64,000 nucleotides of DNA from Acidithiobacillus ferridurans (GTDB lineage Bacteria > Pseudomonadota > Gammaproteobacteria > Acidithiobacillales > Acidithiobacillaceae): positions 2,311,501 through 2,375,500 of the forward strand of contig NZ_AP018795.1 in the NCBI RefSeq assembly GCF_003966655.1. The letters run 5' to 3'. The notes beneath the pieces were generated by a model that made no database searches, was not told the DNA's origin, and saw only the letters and a program-made list of their open reading frames with translations. The first letter of the stretch is position 1; each line of letters begins with the position of its first letter. Shown here one piece after another: positions 27,975 to 35,930 of this stretch. The position numbers were made by a program, and so were the translations under genes.

Positions 27975-28427
27975 ATGGCACTGCACATCACGGTAAAGAT
28001 CAAGCTCACGGGCACCTATGCCGACAAGGTGCGGGTCGAAGCGGCATCCCGGCGCATGTCTTTGGCGGCCCTGACCGCCGAGTATGCCATGCGCGGGCTC
28101 GATGCAGAGGCGCAAGACGGCAGCGAACTGGCCGGTTTTGAGCGCCGGATTGCTGCAACCATACTGGCGTCCAGAAGTGACCTCGAAGCCGTCCAGGCCG
28201 AGCTCGACACGGTGGCCGCGATGCTCGACACCTTCGTCAAGCTCATGCTGGTTCACCTGCCGGAACCGGGCACGGAGAAGGAAGCGACCCAGGCTTCCGC
28301 ACTGGCCCGGTATGAACGATTCATCCAGCAGGTCGGCATGGCCTTCGAGGGCGATAGGCCGCAGGCCCTGAAAAAGATCGGAGAGCTGATTCAGCAGCGG
28401 ATCGGGACGGCGGAGGAAAATCAGTGA
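27975..28427 (+). CDS. Unknown protein at the head of the Trb operon
   Basis: 150 residues (MALHITVKIKLTGTYADKVR). The first 50 residues could form a ribbon-helix-helix-like unit (DKVRVEAASRRMSLAALTAE), followed by a helical region (SRSDLEAVQAELDTVAAMLD) predicted to form a coiled coil. It overlaps trbB by 4 bases. Small proteins in this position are often DNA-binding regulators or relaxosome accessories; that is inference from context. Confidence 0.7.
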   Translation: MALHITVKIKLTGTYADKVRVEAASRRMSLAALTAEYAMRGLDAEAQDGSELAGFERRIAATILASRSDLEAVQAELDTVAAMLDTFVKLMLVHLPEPGTEKEATQASALARYERFIQQVGMAFEGDRPQALKKIGELIQQRIGTAEENQ

Positions 28428-29392
28428 ATATCCACGCGCACGATCAGCAGGAACAGCAGGCCCATGCCCGCCGGATCGAGCAGATGCGGCGCATTCTGGG
28501 GGCGGAGATCGCCGCCCTCTTCGATGACACTGGCGTCGTCGAGATCATGGCCAACCCCGACGGACGGGTCTTTGTCGAGCGTCTGGGGTCGGGAATCTCC
28601 CCCCTGGGCGAGATCGATGCGAGCCGTGTCCAGTCGCTGTTAGGGCTCATGGCCGACTACCTGCATACCACGGTGAGCCGTGACCGGCCCATCGTCGAGG
28701 GGGCCATGCCCATCGAGTTCCTGCGCAGCCGCTTTGCCGGCGCGATCCCGCCCATGGTGGAGGGCGCGTCTTTCAGTATCCGCCTGCCGGCCCGTTCGGT
28801 GTACACACTCGATCAGTACGTTGAGGCGGGCATCATCACGGCGGCGCAGCTGGACACCCTCTCCGATGCCGTGCTTTCCCGCAATAATATCCTGGTGAGC
28901 GGTGGCACAGGATCCGGCAAGACCACCCTGGCCAACGCCATCATCGACCGGATCTCCAAACTATCCGATATCGGCACCCGCATTGTGATCATCGAAGATA
29001 CCCGGGAGCTCCAATGCACCGCTCCCAACGTCGTCCAGTTCCTGACCGACGATGATGCGGGCATCGACATGACGCGCCTCTTAAAGCTCACGCTGCGCTA
29101 TCGGCCCGACCGCATACTGGTAGGCGAGGTCCGCGACAAGGCGGCCCTGGCGCTGCTCAAAGCCTGGAACACGGGACATCCGGGCGGCATCGCCACCCTG
29201 CACGCCAACAACCCCGAAGCGGCCTTGTTGCGTCTCGACCAGCTCTGCCAGGAAGCGGGTGTTCCCGCGCAGCAGACGCTGATCCATGAGGCGGTGGATA
29301 TCGTTTTGCAAATTGCCCGTGATTCGAATCATCCCGCTGGTCGCAGGATTTCGGCCATCCTCGATGTGAAAAGTGGGGAGGTGCGGCAATGA
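28424..29392 (+). CDS. trbB: TrbB/VirB11-type conjugation ATPase
   Basis: 322-residue hexameric traffic ATPase of the conjugative secretion system, acting at the cytoplasmic face. Walker A is SGGTGSGKTT near residue 160; the Asp-box region is RIVIIEDTRELQC, and Walker B and the His box follow as RILVGEVRDKAALALL and HPGGIATLHANN. It starts at a GTG that overlaps the stop of the previous gene (GTGA). Length and motif spacing match TrbB of RP4-type systems. Confidence 0.93.
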   Translation: MNIHAHDQQEQQAHARRIEQMRRILGAEIAALFDDTGVVEIMANPDGRVFVERLGSGISPLGEIDASRVQSLLGLMADYLHTTVSRDRPIVEGAMPIEFLRSRFAGAIPPMVEGASFSIRLPARSVYTLDQYVEAGIITAAQLDTLSDAVLSRNNILVSGGTGSGKTTLANAIIDRISKLSDIGTRIVIIEDTRELQCTAPNVVQFLTDDDAGIDMTRLLKLTLRYRPDRILVGEVRDKAALALLKAWNTGHPGGIATLHANNPEAALLRLDQLCQEAGVPAQQTLIHEAVDIVLQIARDSNHPAGRRISAILDVKSGEVRQ

Positions 29393-29431
29393 AATATCAT
29401 CCTTTTGATTCTGGGTATACCAAAACCCGGC

Positions 29432-29442
29432 GATCTATACCC
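29432..29442 (+). promoter_or_regulatory. GATCTATACCC element, copy 5
   Basis: Exact 11-mer ending 42 bases before the ATG of the pilin gene. TATACC occurs again exactly 20 bases upstream (29416-29421), a direct repeat like that of copy 2. Confidence 0.8.
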
Positions 29443-29484
29443 GCGCAAGGACAAATGCGTGTCCGTCCACGAAAGGGTGTTCAC

Positions 29485-29871
29485 ATGAAAAAGCGGTTGA
29501 AGGCAATATTCTCCGGGGTTCGCAAGGTCAGCGCCGCGGGCCTCATGGTCCTGGCCCCCGGCGTAGCGCTGGCGTCCACATCCGGCGGTGTGTTTTCTCC
29601 CATTGCGGGGCCGCTGAATACGGTCCTGACGGGTATGCAGGATTTGGGCGGACTGGTCGCCGCTGGCGGCTTCGTCGCGACGGGACTTTCCTGGTGGCAT
29701 GGCGGCGAACACAAAAAGGCCATGATGATTGGCATGGGTGCGACGGTCGGGGGCATTGCCATGGCCAATGCGAAATCGCTCGCCACCAGCATCACCGGCG
29801 GCGCCACGATGGGCCATGTGGGCATCCTGGGCCTCGCCGCATCGCACGCCCTGCACGTCGTGGGGCTCTAA
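29485..29871 (+). CDS. trbC: TrbC/VirB2-type pilin precursor
   Basis: 128 residues from the ATG at 29485 (MKKRLKAIFSGVRKVSAAGL). A basic start and hydrophobic core form a long signal peptide ending VALASTSG near residue 31. Two further hydrophobic helices follow, separated by WWHGGEHKKAMM, as in conjugative pilins. An in-frame ATG at 29455 would lengthen the leader by 10 residues. It has its own conserved promoter-like element and precedes trbD by 3 bases. Confidence 0.85.
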   Translation: MKKRLKAIFSGVRKVSAAGLMVLAPGVALASTSGGVFSPIAGPLNTVLTGMQDLGGLVAAGGFVATGLSWWHGGEHKKAMMIGMGATVGGIAMANAKSLATSITGGATMGHVGILGLAASHALHVVGL

Positions 29872-29874
29872 GCC

Positions 29875-30252
29875 ATGGCGGCGGAGCTTACCCGCCGTCT
29901 CCCGCTCCACCCCTCCCTGACCAGGCCCATGCTCGTCGCGGGGGGTGAGCGGGAGGCCACATTTGCCCTTTGGTTCGTCTGTCTCTCTATACCGGTTCTG
30001 GTCTCTCTCTGGTTCATCCCGGTGGGTCTCATCGTCGGCGGAGTGGGGCAGTCGTTTCTGCGAACACTCGCAAAACACGACCCGCAATCCTTTGGCGTCG
30101 TGCGTCGCCACTGGAGCCAGCAATCCGTCTACCTGGGCGGGGCCAGCGCTTATGCACCAGTCCAATACAAGGCCCCCAAAGAACAGACGCAAAGTGCCGC
30201 GTCTGGCGGCCTACTCAAAGCCCTGTCGAAACTCCTGAGGAAGAAGAAATAA
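29875..30252 (+). CDS. trbD: TrbD/VirB3-type inner-membrane protein
   Basis: 125 residues, longer than the usual 90-105. The N-terminal motif LHPSLTRPMLVAGGEREATF is typical for TrbD, followed by one or two membrane helices (CLSIPVLVSLWFIPVGLIVGG). The extra C-terminal 40 residues are Gln/Ala/Lys-rich and end LLRKKK. It partners with the VirB4-type ATPase. Its stop overlaps the trbE start by one base (TAATG). Confidence 0.88.
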   Translation: MAAELTRRLPLHPSLTRPMLVAGGEREATFALWFVCLSIPVLVSLWFIPVGLIVGGVGQSFLRTLAKHDPQSFGVVRRHWSQQSVYLGGASAYAPVQYKAPKEQTQSAASGGLLKALSKLLRKKK

Positions 30253-32774
30253 TGCGCTCCCTGAAACAGTACCGCGATCAGGCCCTGGGCCTTCCCGATC
30301 TATTGAACATCGCTTTTCTGGTGGATGGCTGGCAGACGGATGCCGGGGAAATGGCCATCGCCCTGCAAAAAGACGGGAGCTTTCTGGCGGGGTTCCGCTA
30401 TGACGGGCCTGATCTCGAGAGCCAGTCCACGCAGGATCTGGAGGCGCTCTCGGCCACCTGGAACAACGCCATCGCCCGGCTGGGCACAGACTGGGGTGTG
30501 CATGTCACGGCGATTCGCGAGCCGGCCGACGGCTATATCGACGAATCGGAGTGCGCCTTTCGCGACCCGGTGTCGCGCCTCATCGAGGCCGAGAGGCGGG
30601 CGCAGTTTGGATCGGAAACCCATCACTTTGTGAGCCGTTATGCCATCACCATCGCCTGGCGAACGCCCATCGATGCGGAAGTACAATTGGTACAGTCCAT
30701 GATCCAAAAGAAAGCTGGTAAACAATCCGGGCAGCTGGCCGATGCGGCATTCCGGGATACGCTGGCCCGCTACCGGCAGGTGATCGAAGTTATCCTGGGC
30801 ATTTTCAGGCACGGGTACCGGGTGAAGGCCATGGATGCCGATGCCCTGCTCACCCATATCCATGAGTGCCTGACCGGCGCCACGCATCGCGTCAATGCAC
30901 CCCGGATTCCGGCGTATCTGGATGCCCTCATCGGGCATCATGATTTTGTGGGCGGTCTGGAGCCGTCCATGGACGGGGAAGAGATCCGTGTCGTAACGGT
31001 TCTGGGCTATCCCAGCATGACCTTCCCCGAGATGCTGGAGAACCTGCATAGCCTGCCCATTCCCCTACGCTACACGCTCCGCTTCCTGCCCCTCGATCCG
31101 CCGGATGCGGTGGCGGACATGGCGAAGATCCGGGATCGCTGGTTTGGCTCCCGGGCCAACATGAAATCCCTGCTTACGGAGAAGATGACGGGCGAAGCCC
31201 AGGGACAGTTGTCCGCCGACGATACGGTGGTGAACCTCGCCTATGACGCCAAGCAGGCCGTCAATGAGGCGCGGGAGGGTGCTGTGAAGTTTGGCAACTT
31301 CACACTATCCGTCGTGCTGCGTTCCGCCGATGAAAAAATGCTCGCGAATCGGATCAAGGCGATCAAGACCTTCTTCGACAATGCGGGCTATGTCGCCCAC
31401 CTGGAAACGACCAATACGGTGGAAGCGTTCCTGGGCAGCATCCCGGGTCATCTCTATGAGAACATCCGCCGGCCACTGATGCACTCGCTGAATGTTGCGG
31501 ATTTCGCGCCCAAGACGGAAATCTGGGCCGGTGAAGCGCGTTGCCCGAGTCCGCTGATGAATCTGTCTGACGGCCGTAAAGCCCCGCCCTTGCTGTACGC
31601 GGCGACCACGGGCAATACGCCATACCGACTGAATCTCCATGTCGGCGATCTGGGGCACAGCCTGATTGCCGGCATGACCGGGGGCGGAAAGAGTACACTC
31701 CTGGCCCTGTTGGCCGCGCAATGGCAACGTTATCCCGACAGCCGGGTGATCGCCTTCGACAAGGGCATGAGTCTCTACGCCCTCACGGAAGCCATGGGTG
31801 GGCAGCATTATGATCTGAACGGCCCGACCTCCGATCTGTTTTTTGCACCCCTGCAGCACGTTGATGATCCGGCCGAGGCGGCTTTTGCGGCCGACTGGGT
31901 GGAGGCGCTGGCCGTCCTGCAGGGGATGACGGTCACGTCCACGGAGCGCTCTGCCATTCGGGATGCCGTGCATGGCCTGGCCCGGGAATCCGGGCGCTCG
32001 CTCACCGCGCTGGTCCAGATGATCCAGAACCGGGGGATCAAGGATGCTCTGCAGTATTACACCCTGACCGGGCAAACGGGGAAGCTGCTTGATGCCGAGA
32101 GTGACGGGCTTTCGATGGCCGATGCCAGCATGATCACTTTCGAGATGAGTCACCTGATGAACGGCAGTCCGGCGGAGCACCGGGTAACGGTTCCGGTACT
32201 GCTGTATCTGTTTCACCGGATTGAGCAGATGCTGGATGGACGGCCCACCCTCATTCTGCTCGACGAGGCCTGGACCTTTCTGGACAACGAGCTGTTTCTG
32301 GCGAAGTTGCGGCAATGGCTAAAGGAACTGCGGAAGAAGAATGCCGCCGTCGTTTTTGCCACGCAGTCGCTGAATGATCTCAAGAACAGCCCGCTGCTTC
32401 CGGTCCTGAAGGAATCCTGCCCGACGAAAATCTTCCTGCCCAACCGGGCTGCCACCAGTCCGGACCTCAAGCCCCTGTATATCGACATGGGGCTGAATGA
32501 TCGGCAAATCGAGCTGGTGGCGGCGTCCACGCCGAAGCAGGACTACTACCTGTCCACCCCAGAGGGGCAGCGCCGGATACAGTTTGGCATGGGGCCGGTC
32601 ACCCTGGCTTTTTGCGGTGTCTCCGATCCGCGTGAGGTCAAGCGGGTAGCGGAGCTCAAGACGCAGCACGGCGATCGCTGGCCGATCGCCTGGCTGAAAG
32701 AGCGGCTGTCACCCAGCATCCGGGATGGTTGGGTGCGCTATGCGGAGTCCCTTTACCAGGGAGAACGGGCATGA
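30252..32774 (+). CDS. trbE: TrbE/VirB4-type conjugation ATPase
   Basis: 840-residue energy-supplying ATPase of the secretion channel. The N-terminal CagE/VirB4 domain is followed by Walker A (GMTGGGKSTLLALLAAQ near residue 480) and Walker B (TLILLDEAWTFLDN near 665). The motif VVFATQSLNDL follows, as in the family. The start at 30252 is fixed by the TAATG overlap with trbD; longer starts would run through trbD. Its stop overlaps the next start by 4 bases. The gene is full-length and intact. Confidence 0.94.
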   Translation: MRSLKQYRDQALGLPDLLNIAFLVDGWQTDAGEMAIALQKDGSFLAGFRYDGPDLESQSTQDLEALSATWNNAIARLGTDWGVHVTAIREPADGYIDESECAFRDPVSRLIEAERRAQFGSETHHFVSRYAITIAWRTPIDAEVQLVQSMIQKKAGKQSGQLADAAFRDTLARYRQVIEVILGIFRHGYRVKAMDADALLTHIHECLTGATHRVNAPRIPAYLDALIGHHDFVGGLEPSMDGEEIRVVTVLGYPSMTFPEMLENLHSLPIPLRYTLRFLPLDPPDAVADMAKIRDRWFGSRANMKSLLTEKMTGEAQGQLSADDTVVNLAYDAKQAVNEAREGAVKFGNFTLSVVLRSADEKMLANRIKAIKTFFDNAGYVAHLETTNTVEAFLGSIPGHLYENIRRPLMHSLNVADFAPKTEIWAGEARCPSPLMNLSDGRKAPPLLYAATTGNTPYRLNLHVGDLGHSLIAGMTGGGKSTLLALLAAQWQRYPDSRVIAFDKGMSLYALTEAMGGQHYDLNGPTSDLFFAPLQHVDDPAEAAFAADWVEALAVLQGMTVTSTERSAIRDAVHGLARESGRSLTALVQMIQNRGIKDALQYYTLTGQTGKLLDAESDGLSMADASMITFEMSHLMNGSPAEHRVTVPVLLYLFHRIEQMLDGRPTLILLDEAWTFLDNELFLAKLRQWLKELRKKNAAVVFATQSLNDLKNSPLLPVLKESCPTKIFLPNRAATSPDLKPLYIDMGLNDRQIELVAASTPKQDYYLSTPEGQRRIQFGMGPVTLAFCGVSDPREVKRVAELKTQHGDRWPIAWLKERLSPSIRDGWVRYAESLYQGERA

Positions 32775-33052
32775 AAAAGCAGATCGGTGTGGCGGTTCTT
32801 GGGTCCCTGTTTGCGGCCTTGCCAGTTTTTGCGGTGGGCGGCGATTCCGCGACGATAGCGCAGTTGCAGGCGGAGAACGCCGCGATCACCGCTGGAAACC
32901 TTTCGGTGAACCCGCTGGCAGAGCGGACGCAATTGGTGAAGGCATTGGGGTACGACATGGGCCAGATCAGCAACTACATGGTCCCCATAAACGGCGACGT
33001 GGCGAATTTCGCAGCAAAGGCCAATGCGTTGGCGCAATCGCTATCGCAGTAA
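32771..33052 (+). CDS. Small secreted protein of the Trb operon
   Basis: 93 residues with a clear signal peptide (MKKQIGVAVLGSLFAALPVFAVG), cleaved around residue 22. The mature part is a helical 70-residue chain (ATIAQLQAENAAITAGNLSV). It overlaps the trbE stop (ATGA). No family was recognised, but its site between trbE and trbJ and the periplasmic export suggest an accessory part of the pilus or channel. Confidence 0.75.
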   Translation: MKKQIGVAVLGSLFAALPVFAVGGDSATIAQLQAENAAITAGNLSVNPLAERTQLVKALGYDMGQISNYMVPINGDVANFAAKANALAQSLSQ

Positions 33053-33135: not shown

Positions 33136-33876
33136 ATGAGCATCCAAAGCAAGGCAGTCATGCTGAGCGTGAGCCTCGCTCTATTGCCGGCGCCCGCCTT
33201 TGCCGTCAGTGAAGTGGCCGGTGCCACTTTCCCCGAACAGATCGTCCAGGAAGCGACGTCTGTTCAGCAGTTGGCGAAGCAGGCGCAGGAGGTAACGACA
33301 CAGATCAGCATGTACGCCAACGATATCGAGCGCTATCAGAACATGGTGACCAATACCCTGAACATGCCGGCGGCCATGTATGCCCAGATCTGGAATCCGC
33401 TGGTGGGATCCATTCAGAAACTGACCAGCATTTATAGCCAGGCACAGGCGCTGGGCTACGCCGGGCAGAATATCGGCGCTGAACTCGCGCAGGAGTATCA
33501 GGGGGCTGGCAGCTCCATCCAGAATCTGTCCTCCGTCTATGCCAACTGGAACCAGACGACCAACACCGACATGGAAGACGCTCTGGAGTCCCAGCACCTG
33601 GCGGCGCAGAACTTCGCGACACAGGATGCATCGATGCAGACGATCCAGAATGAAGCGCAGACAGCTCAAGGCCGGGAGCAGGTGGCCGCTGCCGCCGTGG
33701 CTGCGGCCAACGTCACCACCAAGTCGATCCAGCAACTGGAGCAGATCACCATGGCTGGCGAGGACGCGCAGATCGCTTATCTGAAGCAGAAGAAGGCGGA
33801 AAAGAACGTGACTGCGCAAGAAGCGGCAGACGGACTCTTTTCCGGTGGCACGAACAACCCCAGCCTTTTGCCTTGA
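33136..33876 (+). CDS. trbJ: TrbJ/VirB5-type minor pilin protein
   Basis: 246-residue periplasmic protein with a signal peptide (MSIQSKAVMLSVSLALLPAPAFA). The mature chain is almost all helix, with the typical QLAKQAQEVTTQISMYANDI and a Gln/Ala-rich central region. TrbJ/VirB5 proteins sit at the pilus tip or base. The C-terminal 19 residues (EAADGLFSGGTNNPSLLP) are nearly identical to the end of the next gene's product. The GGGAGG ribosome-binding site supports the ATG at 33136. Confidence 0.9.
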   Translation: MSIQSKAVMLSVSLALLPAPAFAVSEVAGATFPEQIVQEATSVQQLAKQAQEVTTQISMYANDIERYQNMVTNTLNMPAAMYAQIWNPLVGSIQKLTSIYSQAQALGYAGQNIGAELAQEYQGAGSSIQNLSSVYANWNQTTNTDMEDALESQHLAAQNFATQDASMQTIQNEAQTAQGREQVAAAAVAAANVTTKSIQQLEQITMAGEDAQIAYLKQKKAEKNVTAQEAADGLFSGGTNNPSLLP

Positions 33877-33887
33877 AGGAGATGATG

Positions 33888-34142
33888 ATGAAAAAAGCGC
33901 TATTGCTCGCAGCGATGGGCGTCATGCTGGCCGGTTGCGCACACCAGCCTGTGTACACCGCGCAGTATTACCGGACCCACAAGGCAGCGCTCAAAAAGGA
34001 AATCGCCTTCTGCGCGAAGGCGGAAAAGGTTTCCGATAGTGAGGCGAAGAACTGCCGGATGGCGCAGGCGGTACAATCGGATGAAGAGGCGGCAAATGGG
34101 CTCTTCTCCGGCGGTACGAACAACCCCGCATTGCTGCCGTAA
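33888..34142 (+). CDS. EexN-like entry-exclusion lipoprotein
   Basis: 84 residues from the ATG at 33888, 7 bases after AAGGAG. MKKALLLAAMGVMLAGC is a lipoprotein signal with lipobox LAGC, so Cys17 would be lipidated. The mature part has three further Cys-like positions (AFCAKAEKVSDSEAKNCRMA) and resembles EexN-type entry-exclusion proteins located beside trbJ/virB5, which block redundant conjugation into cells that already carry the element. Its end EAANGLFSGGTNNPALLP repeats that of TrbJ. Confidence 0.75.
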   Translation: MKKALLLAAMGVMLAGCAHQPVYTAQYYRTHKAALKKEIAFCAKAEKVSDSEAKNCRMAQAVQSDEEAANGLFSGGTNNPALLP

Positions 34143-34157
34143 GGAGCGACCAGGCTT

Positions 34158-35930
34158 ATGCGTGGACACCGCAGGTTTCCGTGGATCATGGGCATGCTTC
34201 TGGGTGCCGTCCCCGGCATTTCGTTCGCAGCGGGTTCGGGATCGTTGAGTCAGGTACAAAGCCTTTTGCGAGGCAAAATTCTTCCTTGGCAAAGTGTCAT
34301 GCAAACGGCGGCCACGGATCTGTTCTACGTCCTGGCGGCGGTCGAGTTCTCCGTCCTGTTTCTGAACCATGTTCTGCAAAAGCGTGGGCACGAAGATCTC
34401 TTTGCCGGTATCATCAAGAAGGTGGTGACGCTGGGGTTTTTTCTGACCCTGCTCGACAACTCCGAGACCTGGATTCCCGACATCATCAATGGTCTGGCCG
34501 GTGGAGCGCACGCGCTCGGAGTGACGGCCGTGACGCCCGGGCAGATCGCGACGGAGGCTCTTCAGGCATTTCTCGGGATCGTGCTGTCTCCAATAGCTGC
34601 CGCCACCCACAACCTGGGTAATACCTTCAGCGACATTTTCAGTGGTAATTTCTCTGCGGCTTTTTCTTCTGCGGGAAAAGCGGTCGCCAGCAGCAACCCG
34701 GCATCGCTCCTGGTAGAGACCCTCCTGGCGGGGATCATTGGTCTGCTGGCAGGGATGGGCATTCTGGTCATGGCCCTGGAGTTCCTGATGGTCCAGATCG
34801 AGAGTTACCTGGTGATCGCCCTGGGCGTGATCATGCTGGCCGGCGGCGGGCTGCGCTGGACGGCCAAGTATGTCGGCAGTTATTTCGATTACGCCATCAA
34901 CGTGGGTGTCCGTCTTTTTATCCTGACCGCGCTGGCGTATCTGGTGACCTACAGCATCGTGCCGCTGATCCAGACGATCCTGGAGAATGTCACGAATCCT
35001 TTGCAGGCTGGATTCGAGGTGCTTATTCTGGGTGCCCTCATCGCCCTGTTGCCCCGCAAAGCATCCAGCATTGCCAGTAGCCTTCTGTCCGGTAACTCAT
35101 CCTTCTCCGGCGGAGAACTGGCTAAGGAAGGCGGGATGATCGCCGGTGGCACGGTAGCACTGGGAGCGGCTGGCGTGGGCCTGGCCGCCGCTGCGGGCGG
35201 GGGGCTCGCCGCTGGTGGATTATCCGCAGCGGCGGGTGCTGGAGGCGGTGCTGCCGGAGGCGCTGCCAGCCTTGCAGGCGGCCTTACCGGGGCGGCTGGC
35301 GCGGGAGAAACCGGCGCGGCGGCTGGTGTGGCGGCACCGGAAGCTGGGGCGATGTCCGCAGGCGGTGGCGCGAGTTCCGGCGCGAGCGCAGGGAACGCCG
35401 TACCGGCCCCCGGCATGGGCGGTTCGGCGGGTGGTGAGGCGCCCCAGGCAGCCAGGGCTGTGCAGGCCCCAGCGCCGATTACGCAATCCACTGGCCAGCA
35501 AAACCCATCCAAGGGTGTCGAGGCGCCGAGCCAGGAAACTGGAAAGGAAGCGGGCCAGGATAAGCGGAAGGATGAGGAAATGAGCGCAAGCGAACCCTTC
35601 GCAGGGGGCAAACCCCATCCCGATGCGCCGCCCGTCCCGGTCAATGCGGTTCCGGCTCCTGAGCCCGTCAGTACGCCTTCTGGCGGTGGCGGTCAGGGAA
35701 GCACGGCGGCTCCGGCTCCGAGCGCGCCCGCAAGTGGCGGTGCCACGATGGACGATGTGGTCGAGCAGCTGAAGCAGATGCAGGGGCAGCCGAAGGCGGC
35801 AGTGGATAAGCTGAAAGATGGGTTTATTGATAGAGCGAAAAGTCATGTGGAGGGTGTCGCAACAGGGAACTCGAGAGATGTGCCTTCAGGCGGAAAAATC
35901 TCTACCGACCACATGAGGGACTTCGATTGA
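34158..35930 (+). CDS. trbL: TrbL/VirB6-type polytopic membrane protein
   Basis: 590 residues. A signal-like start (MRGHRRFPWIMGMLLGAVPG) is followed by five or six membrane helices to about residue 310 (GIIGLLAGMGILVMALEFLM, YLVIALGVIMLAGGGLRW). The C-terminal 270 residues are a Gly/Ala-rich then Pro/Ser-rich soluble tail, as in TrbL proteins, and contain a repeat-derived PFAGGKPHPDAPP segment. TrbL forms part of the inner-membrane channel. No TrbF, TrbG or TrbI follows, so the operon is incomplete here. Confidence 0.9.
   Translation: MRGHRRFPWIMGMLLGAVPGISFAAGSGSLSQVQSLLRGKILPWQSVMQTAATDLFYVLAAVEFSVLFLNHVLQKRGHEDLFAGIIKKVVTLGFFLTLLDNSETWIPDIINGLAGGAHALGVTAVTPGQIATEALQAFLGIVLSPIAAATHNLGNTFSDIFSGNFSAAFSSAGKAVASSNPASLLVETLLAGIIGLLAGMGILVMALEFLMVQIESYLVIALGVIMLAGGGLRWTAKYVGSYFDYAINVGVRLFILTALAYLVTYSIVPLIQTILENVTNPLQAGFEVLILGALIALLPRKASSIASSLLSGNSSFSGGELAKEGGMIAGGTVALGAAGVGLAAAAGGGLAAGGLSAAAGAGGGAAGGAASLAGGLTGAAGAGETGAAAGVAAPEAGAMSAGGGASSGASAGNAVPAPGMGGSAGGEAPQAARAVQAPAPITQSTGQQNPSKGVEAPSQETGKEAGQDKRKDEEMSASEPFAGGKPHPDAPPVPVNAVPAPEPVSTPSGGGGQGSTAAPAPSAPASGGATMDDVVEQLKQMQGQPKAAVDKLKDGFIDRAKSHVEGVATGNSRDVPSGGKISTDHMRDFD

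Follow-up and report, generated by a model that had tools for sequence, protein, structure and literature searches.

The stretch of DNA analysed here (64 kb, hereafter the window) is part of the 2.92 Mb chromosome of Acidithiobacillus ferridurans. It contains a partial Trb-type conjugation operon, in which trbB, trbC, trbD and trbE are followed by an ORF for a small secreted protein, trbJ, eex and trbL (Table 1). A first-pass annotation had named two adjacent products TrbJ and EexN-like, and profile searches bore these names out, with both proteins scoring above the cut-offs of their families. The eex gene lies between the end of trbJ (33876) and the start of trbL (34158), as in the EexN family, and its product carries a lipoprotein signal that can be read from the sequence (lipobox MKKALLLAAMGVMLAGC). 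Judged by its profile match, the eex product is a full EexN family member and a putative entry-exclusion lipoprotein. The VirB5 profile that we built also detects the R388-type protein TrwJ (4e-28).

Table 1. Features of the trb locus, with positions in the window.
Feature	Position	Strand	Evidence
trbB, VirB11 ATPase	28424..29392	+	PF00437, 1.9e-38
trbC, VirB2 pilin	29389..29871	+	PF04956
trbD, VirB3	29875..30252	+	PF05101
trbE, VirB4 ATPase, same operon	30252..32774	+	PF03135 and TraG P-loop matches
trbJ, VirB5-family pilus-tip protein, 246 aa, signal peptide	33136..33876	+	TIGR02780 TrbJ_Ti equivalog, 248.2 bits (cut-off 100.55)
TrbJ C-terminal tail EAADGLFSGGTNNPSLLP	33820..33873	+	sequence
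eex, EexN-family putative entry-exclusion lipoprotein, 84 aa, lipobox LAGC	33888..34142	+	NF033894 Eex_IncN, 41.9 bits (cut-off 33)
Eex C-terminal tail EAANGLFSGGTNNPALLP, copy of TrbJ tail	34086..34139	+	sequence
trbL, VirB6 family	34158..35930	+	TIGR02783 TrbL_P, 357 bits (cut-off 128.85); PF04610
TrbL segment after second hydrophobic stretch (about pTi TrbL 116-165), candidate docking site	34482..34700 (boundaries approximate)	+	alignment mapping from rhizobial loci

The secreted ORF between trbE and trbJ (32768-33052, 94 aa) had no Pfam match above the cut-off and no NCBIfam match. Immediately before the trb operon lies a DDE transposase gene (PF13701; 26208-27749, opposite strand). Downstream, the first TrbI gene is approximately 57 kb away from trbJ (G000:C1:2402563), compared with approximately 11 kb in a sister element, and the stretch between the end of trbL (35930 onward) and this gene contains unrelated genes and transposases. 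As the trb operon thus seems split, the element in the window may be immobile.

The last 18 residues of TrbJ and Eex are identical at 16 positions, as the first-pass annotation had noticed, and the interval that it gave (33822-34142) covers both tails. In BLOSUM62 comparisons against all six frames of the whole window, the TrbJ tail scored 94 with itself and 86 with the Eex tail, and the next-best 18-residue stretch scored 28. DNA identity between trbJ and eex, counted per 30 nt towards the stop codon, was 11, 11, 22 and 21 of 30, followed by 9 of 33 in the stretch that includes the stop codon and the bases behind it, so that the likeness of the DNA is limited to the tail. The synonymous differences that had been reported within this stretch are real, as different codons are used at 8 of the 16 identical residues. 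Compared with foreign tails, the TrbJ tail of its own element was the best match of the window Eex (score 88, rank 1). A chance match is ruled out by the six-frame scan together with the permutations described below.

Tail matching within and between elements

A search of 40 related genomes detected TrbJ in 14. Fifteen elements of this panel had an adjacent exclusion gene, and their tails matched clearly (score >32) in 11, were borderline in one (L018) and did not match in three (L011, L016 and L026). A clear match is absent in approximately a quarter of adjacent pairs. The covariation proposed by the first-pass annotation was thus found, and the outcome that it had named as contrary evidence, most relatives having the tail on one protein but not the other, was not. 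Tails differ completely between elements, yet they are usually alike within the VirB5/exclusion protein pair of one element, as exemplified by L010 (SAANLGPIPTQLPAGRGAPVPVS in TrbJ, SAANLGPIPTKLPAGRGAPVPAS in the exclusion protein), L012 (TVTYGNPNFGWLN in both), L017 (ALAAMDSGGPLTSNAPSLAAYTP and ALAAMDSGGPLTSNSKSLADYTP), L009 (GAGNDADQDLM and GAGKDADQNLM) and L021 (HLPSFSW and HLPHFSW). The TrbJ tail is also kept in eight loci without an adjacent exclusion gene (L006, L007, L008, L013, L014, L023, L024 and L028). As these elements still keep a tail, it belongs primarily to VirB5, with the exclusion protein carrying the copy. One scan of IMG/VR found no TrbJ relatives.

The chromosome that contains the window has three trbJ-eex elements (L001, L015 and L026), and the tails of L001 and L015 are nearly identical. 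As these two elements, which form one predicted exclusion group, coexist in one genome, exclusion in nature is not absolute.

We quantified the match as the local alignment score between the last 32 residues of VirB5 and the part of the exclusion protein beyond its anchor. Over 60 pairs, proteins from the same element scored 47.2 on average, against 19.1 (sd 4.4) for foreign combinations, and 37 pairs exceeded the 99th percentile of the foreign scores. When each of the 24 tail clusters was reduced to one representative, the observed sum was not reached in any of 100,000 permutations (z 14.2), and the own pair ranked first in 15 clusters. A small number of the second genes in the 60 pairs probably do not encode exclusion proteins, and the test is conservative for that reason. 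As a control, VirB5 residues -96 to -33 were compared with the same proteins, resulting in a z of only 1.2. In a second set of 41 named pairs, where the hydrophobic anchor, not the tail, guided the choice of the partner, z was 12.0. The rhizobial family alone (30 pairs) yielded a z of 8.0, with tails that tracked the subtypes RGGQTMEPRW, IPEGQKMEPRW and STSGGEKMKVEW.

Class- and phylum-wide searches, supplemented with annotated plasmids, identified matching tails in R751, RP4-type IncP, pKM101-type IncN, R388-type IncW, IncX1/X3/X4, Ti and rhizobial plasmids, and in Legionella and Neisseria; loci from Legionella, Neisseria, Acidobacteria and Methylococcales agree. Given as VirB5 and exclusion protein, the tails are RQGSYRASPARTW and RRGGDFKPSPKREW in R751, REGSYRASPSKTW and GGFKPSEKKEW in pBS228 (IncP-1alpha, our stand-in for RP4-type IncP), DIRGGQTMEPRW and DVRGGQEMKPRW in pTi-SAKURA, and FRKQQLEAEEPSFKDAARRY and FRYQQLHAKEPNFKEYFKKY in IncX1. 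The IncN match is weak (R46, RNFVFGTGGDVTASPSIN and RQLFVLGKEDGEINSPKI), and the R388-type match is short, with six residues (GMPTIQ/GMPKIR) in the IncW plasmid R7K (GNQGMPTIQ and QGDGMPKIR), whose TrwJ tail is the same as that of the solved R388 protein. Adjacent lipoproteins of the RRRF type (L062, L065, L092, L095, L106, L108 and L111) share at most RRRF with the VirB5 end before continuing into divergent proline-rich ends, and all of these except L106 were scored as weak or without a tail match. HMMER also detected the likeness unaided, aligning Ti TrbK residues 47-72 with the last 25 positions of a TrbJ family model (E 0.005). The exclusion proteins of pTi and Xanthomonas/pNORD58 have a hydrophobic anchor without a lipobox, so that their tails match although the rest of the protein is different. 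Matching tails are common to most of the surveyed VirB/Trb-type exclusion systems rather than particular to the window pair, which is wider than the first-pass annotation had guessed.

In a gonococcal conjugative plasmid, trbJ is followed by a lipoprotein ORF (L247:2592-2747) that is absent from the listing of its record; it ends in DVLKRPYKRKE, compared with DILKHPYRRGQ in TrbJ, and is likely an exclusion gene. Two 'hypothetical' proteins encoded between trbJ and trbL (L144:5182-5364 and L145:5161-5364) have a hydrophobic anchor but lack a lipobox; their location and their tails suggest that they are exclusion proteins.

Matching tails are not restricted to neighbouring genes. In IncX4, eexN lies upstream of the operon, approximately 4 kb from virB5, and the tails match (FIKQQKEAEPLTFD and FIQSQKDAPVPTFD). 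One genome (G132) encodes two exclusion-like lipoproteins approximately 7 kb apart (L057 and L062), and the TrbJ tail (RRFLGDGTPYTP) is matched more closely by the remote EexN protein (L057, KRFYGDGETPYTP) than by the one encoded next to trbJ. In a blind test, we took three elements that lack an exclusion gene beside trbJ and queried their genomes with their own TrbJ tails. In G009, this led to a remote lipoprotein ending in GGMAAPINPNVMP, compared with GSMGAGINPNVMP in TrbJ, at an E-value of 1.08 that is not significant alone. This lipoprotein (L250:1270-1581, G009:C1), which was found only through the VirB5 tail, belongs to the EexN family above the cut-off, and its gene adjoins a ParA-like gene. 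The same search of the other two genomes (G024 and G019) gave no exclusion gene at a distance. As the pairs in IncX4, G132 and G009 match with their genes apart, the tail match is not an effect of gene adjacency.

The codons of the tails provide information on their age. Over 30 well-matched pairs, different codons were used at 183 of 379 identical residues, compared with 218 expected if codons were independent. As synonymous sites are near saturation, the match is mostly old and kept at the protein level by selection rather than by recent copying, in agreement with what had been proposed for the window pair. The pairs of L010 and L020 are younger copies (different codons at 5 of 24 identical residues in L010, against 16 expected). 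Such pairs suggest that an exclusion gene acquires a new tail by receiving a copy of the trbJ end, which is maintained thereafter.

A candidate docking site in TrbL

Next, we considered where the two tails might bind. The AlphaFold2 model of the TrbJ monomer is a helical bundle (pLDDT 67), in which a helix at residues 177-235 is followed by an end (237-246) that mostly has a pLDDT below 50; the VIA-align matches listed are generic helical bundles, with no VirB5 entry among them. In the assembled R388 stalk, VirB5 has been built to its last residue (229), and each VirB5 is located between two VirB6 subunits (PMC9259494). A tail that has low confidence in the monomer and an end that is built in the stalk are as expected for a peptide that folds on binding. 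The best PDB matches of the TrbL model are R388 TrwI/VirB6 (8rt9 and 7o3v), and its top seven Foldseek matches are all chains of the R388 stalk (best 8rt9_F, E 9.8e-4).

Among 48 rhizobial loci, TrbJ tail distance was associated with TrbL after removal of the other tested Trb proteins (partial r 0.42); the corresponding values were 0.33 for TrbC, -0.03 for the TrbJ body (best window 0.26) and -0.12 for TrbE. The association with TrbL peaks at pTi residues 116-165, at 216-255 and at the N-terminus, reaching an r of 0.69 for residues 126-155, and the first peak falls between the second and third hydrophobic stretches. Between the peaks the association is low, as it is in the stretch of TrbJ right beside the tail, which means that simple linkage does not explain it. 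These values are controlled for protein distance and not for the full phylogeny, and shared ancestry would be expected to account for part of them; for this reason, we regard VirB6/TrbL as the likely, rather than the demonstrated, docking partner of both tails.

Proposed decoy mechanism and its alternatives

The above observations can be combined into a mechanism. The flexible end of TrbJ/VirB5 would be a short peptide with a docking site in the conjugation machine of its element, most likely on VirB6 (TrbL), which carries the VirB5 pentamer. In this view, the exclusion protein is a small membrane-anchored decoy that would present this peptide in the periplasm whenever a cell already has the element. 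On contact by a donor with the same element, this decoy would fill the docking site or jam the VirB5/VirB6 tip complex, so that no channel opens and no DNA enters. With tails and docks changing in concert between elements, a decoy would block only the machines of its own tail group. We consider it probable that the exclusion protein is such a decoy, mimicking the VirB5 tail and blocking its dock, which is most likely the donor VirB6/TrbL. Mimicry of the VirB5 tail is itself well supported by the matching, covarying and selectively maintained tails; the role of the tail as the active part, VirB6 as its docking partner and the way in which transfer is blocked are inferred. The shared docking tag that the first-pass annotation had tentatively linked to exclusion thus gains support from the covariation, and such a tag may set exclusion specificity.

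Published work places the action of the exclusion protein in the recipient and shows that its C-terminal region is required, since exclusion is lost when TrbK is truncated at its C-terminus (PMC8923210, which also cites a C-terminal result of Haase 1996). The loss caused by these truncations (116 bp, and a stop at nt 338) extends, or may extend, beyond the tail. Recipients with only RP4 trbJ or only trbK resist RP4 contact killing, and R388 or R6K confer no such protection (PMC11045733); protection by TrbJ alone is what competition between tails predicts. In F and SXT, the targets of entry exclusion are VirB6 homologues, and for IncP, IncW and IncN the donor target was stated to be unknown in 2024, with VirB6 suspected from gene order (PMC11493245); the mechanism for these three groups was also stated to be unknown in 2022 (PMC9825185). 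Counting against the model, TrbK of pKPC_UVA01 is also needed in the donor and excludes both IncP and IncN plasmids (PMC8923210), neither of which is predicted by a simple decoy in the recipient. The unmatched pairs of L011, L016 and L026, the weak RRRF-type and IncN matches, the short R388-type match, the coexistence of L001 and L015 and the partial r of TrbC count against it as well.

Matching tails would be equally expected if the tail recognised VirB5 itself, packing on a neighbouring VirB5 or the pilus base, so that the recipient copy would insert into the incoming pentamer and poison the tip. VirB5 occupies the pilus tip, and it would enter the recipient periplasm ahead of all other components (PMC12624023). 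We nevertheless consider this unlikely, since the TrbJ tail type follows TrbL and not the rest of TrbJ, and since known entry-exclusion targets elsewhere are VirB6 homologues. The requirement for pKPC_UVA01 TrbK in donor as well as recipient would rather fit an exclusion protein that mainly acts in its own cell, where its tail would occupy the VirB6/VirB5 dock and tune pilus assembly, with exclusion as an indirect result. This is quite improbable, as cloned TrbK alone in a plasmid-free recipient excludes approximately 300-fold and trbK is dispensable for transfer (PMC8923210), and as TrbJ or TrbK alone protects recipients (PMC11045733).

A neutral partial duplication, in which the neighbouring gene received a copy of the trbJ 3' end and gene conversion has kept the two sequences similar without any function, could account for recently copied pairs such as that of L010, for the usual adjacency of the genes and for a likeness of the DNA that is limited to the tail. 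However, synonymous sites are near saturation overall and tails match where the genes are apart (IncX4 and L250), which together rule out gene conversion as the explanation, and the pattern recurs on different anchors; we therefore regard neutral duplication as very improbable. Both proteins are exported to the periplasm, as would suit a tail that serves as a general signal for envelope sorting or processing. This is hardly credible, since the tails are wholly different in related hosts (L010 and L017 compared with L001) and even within one genome (L026 compared with L001), making a host factor that reads all of them unlikely and contradicting a host-read tag.

Comparison with known exclusion systems

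Most conjugative plasmids encode entry exclusion, which determines what plasmids, including those that spread antibiotic resistance, can meet in one cell. The shared tail points to a concrete target for exclusion, the docking site of VirB5, and would explain both why exclusion is specific to the own element and why RP4 TrbJ alone protects recipients. We lean towards a general reading, in which VirB/Trb-type entry exclusion is mimicry of the own VirB5 C-terminal docking peptide that competes at VirB6. The last 10-25 residues would then be a readable specificity code, from which exclusion groups may be predicted and unannotated exclusion genes found by sequence alone. A tail shared by VirB5 and the exclusion protein was not described in the open-access literature that we searched, and an earlier description elsewhere is possible.

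Element-specific recognition of a donor VirB6 homologue by a recipient protein is also found in F (TraS-TraG) and SXT/R391 (Eex-TraG). Unlike in the mechanism proposed here, the recognition regions of these systems are cytoplasmic, and their description reports no mimicry of a VirB5 tail (PMC11493245). Sfx and TraT surface exclusion resemble entry exclusion in that an element-specific block of mating is encoded by the recipient, but they involve different proteins, which the papers on them connect with pilus entry or with TraN, the adhesin of the donor. The VirB5-VirB6 stalk of the R388 type IV secretion system (7o3v and 8rt9) is another related system, as TrbL models as TrwI/VirB6 and TrwJ is related to TrbJ by sequence; the accessible parts of the stalk papers describe the N-terminal tip of VirB5 and give no role to its C-terminal tail. 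Like the window eex, the genes of the EexN/TrbK proteins of MPF_T plasmids (pKM101 Eex, R388 Eex, RP4 and R751 TrbK, and Ti TrbK) encode small anchored proteins and lie between virB5/trbJ and virB6/trbL. The family model NF033894 (65 positions) matches the window Eex only to residue 64 of 84 and thus stops before the tail. These classical EexN/TrbK systems also carry a tail that matches their VirB5.
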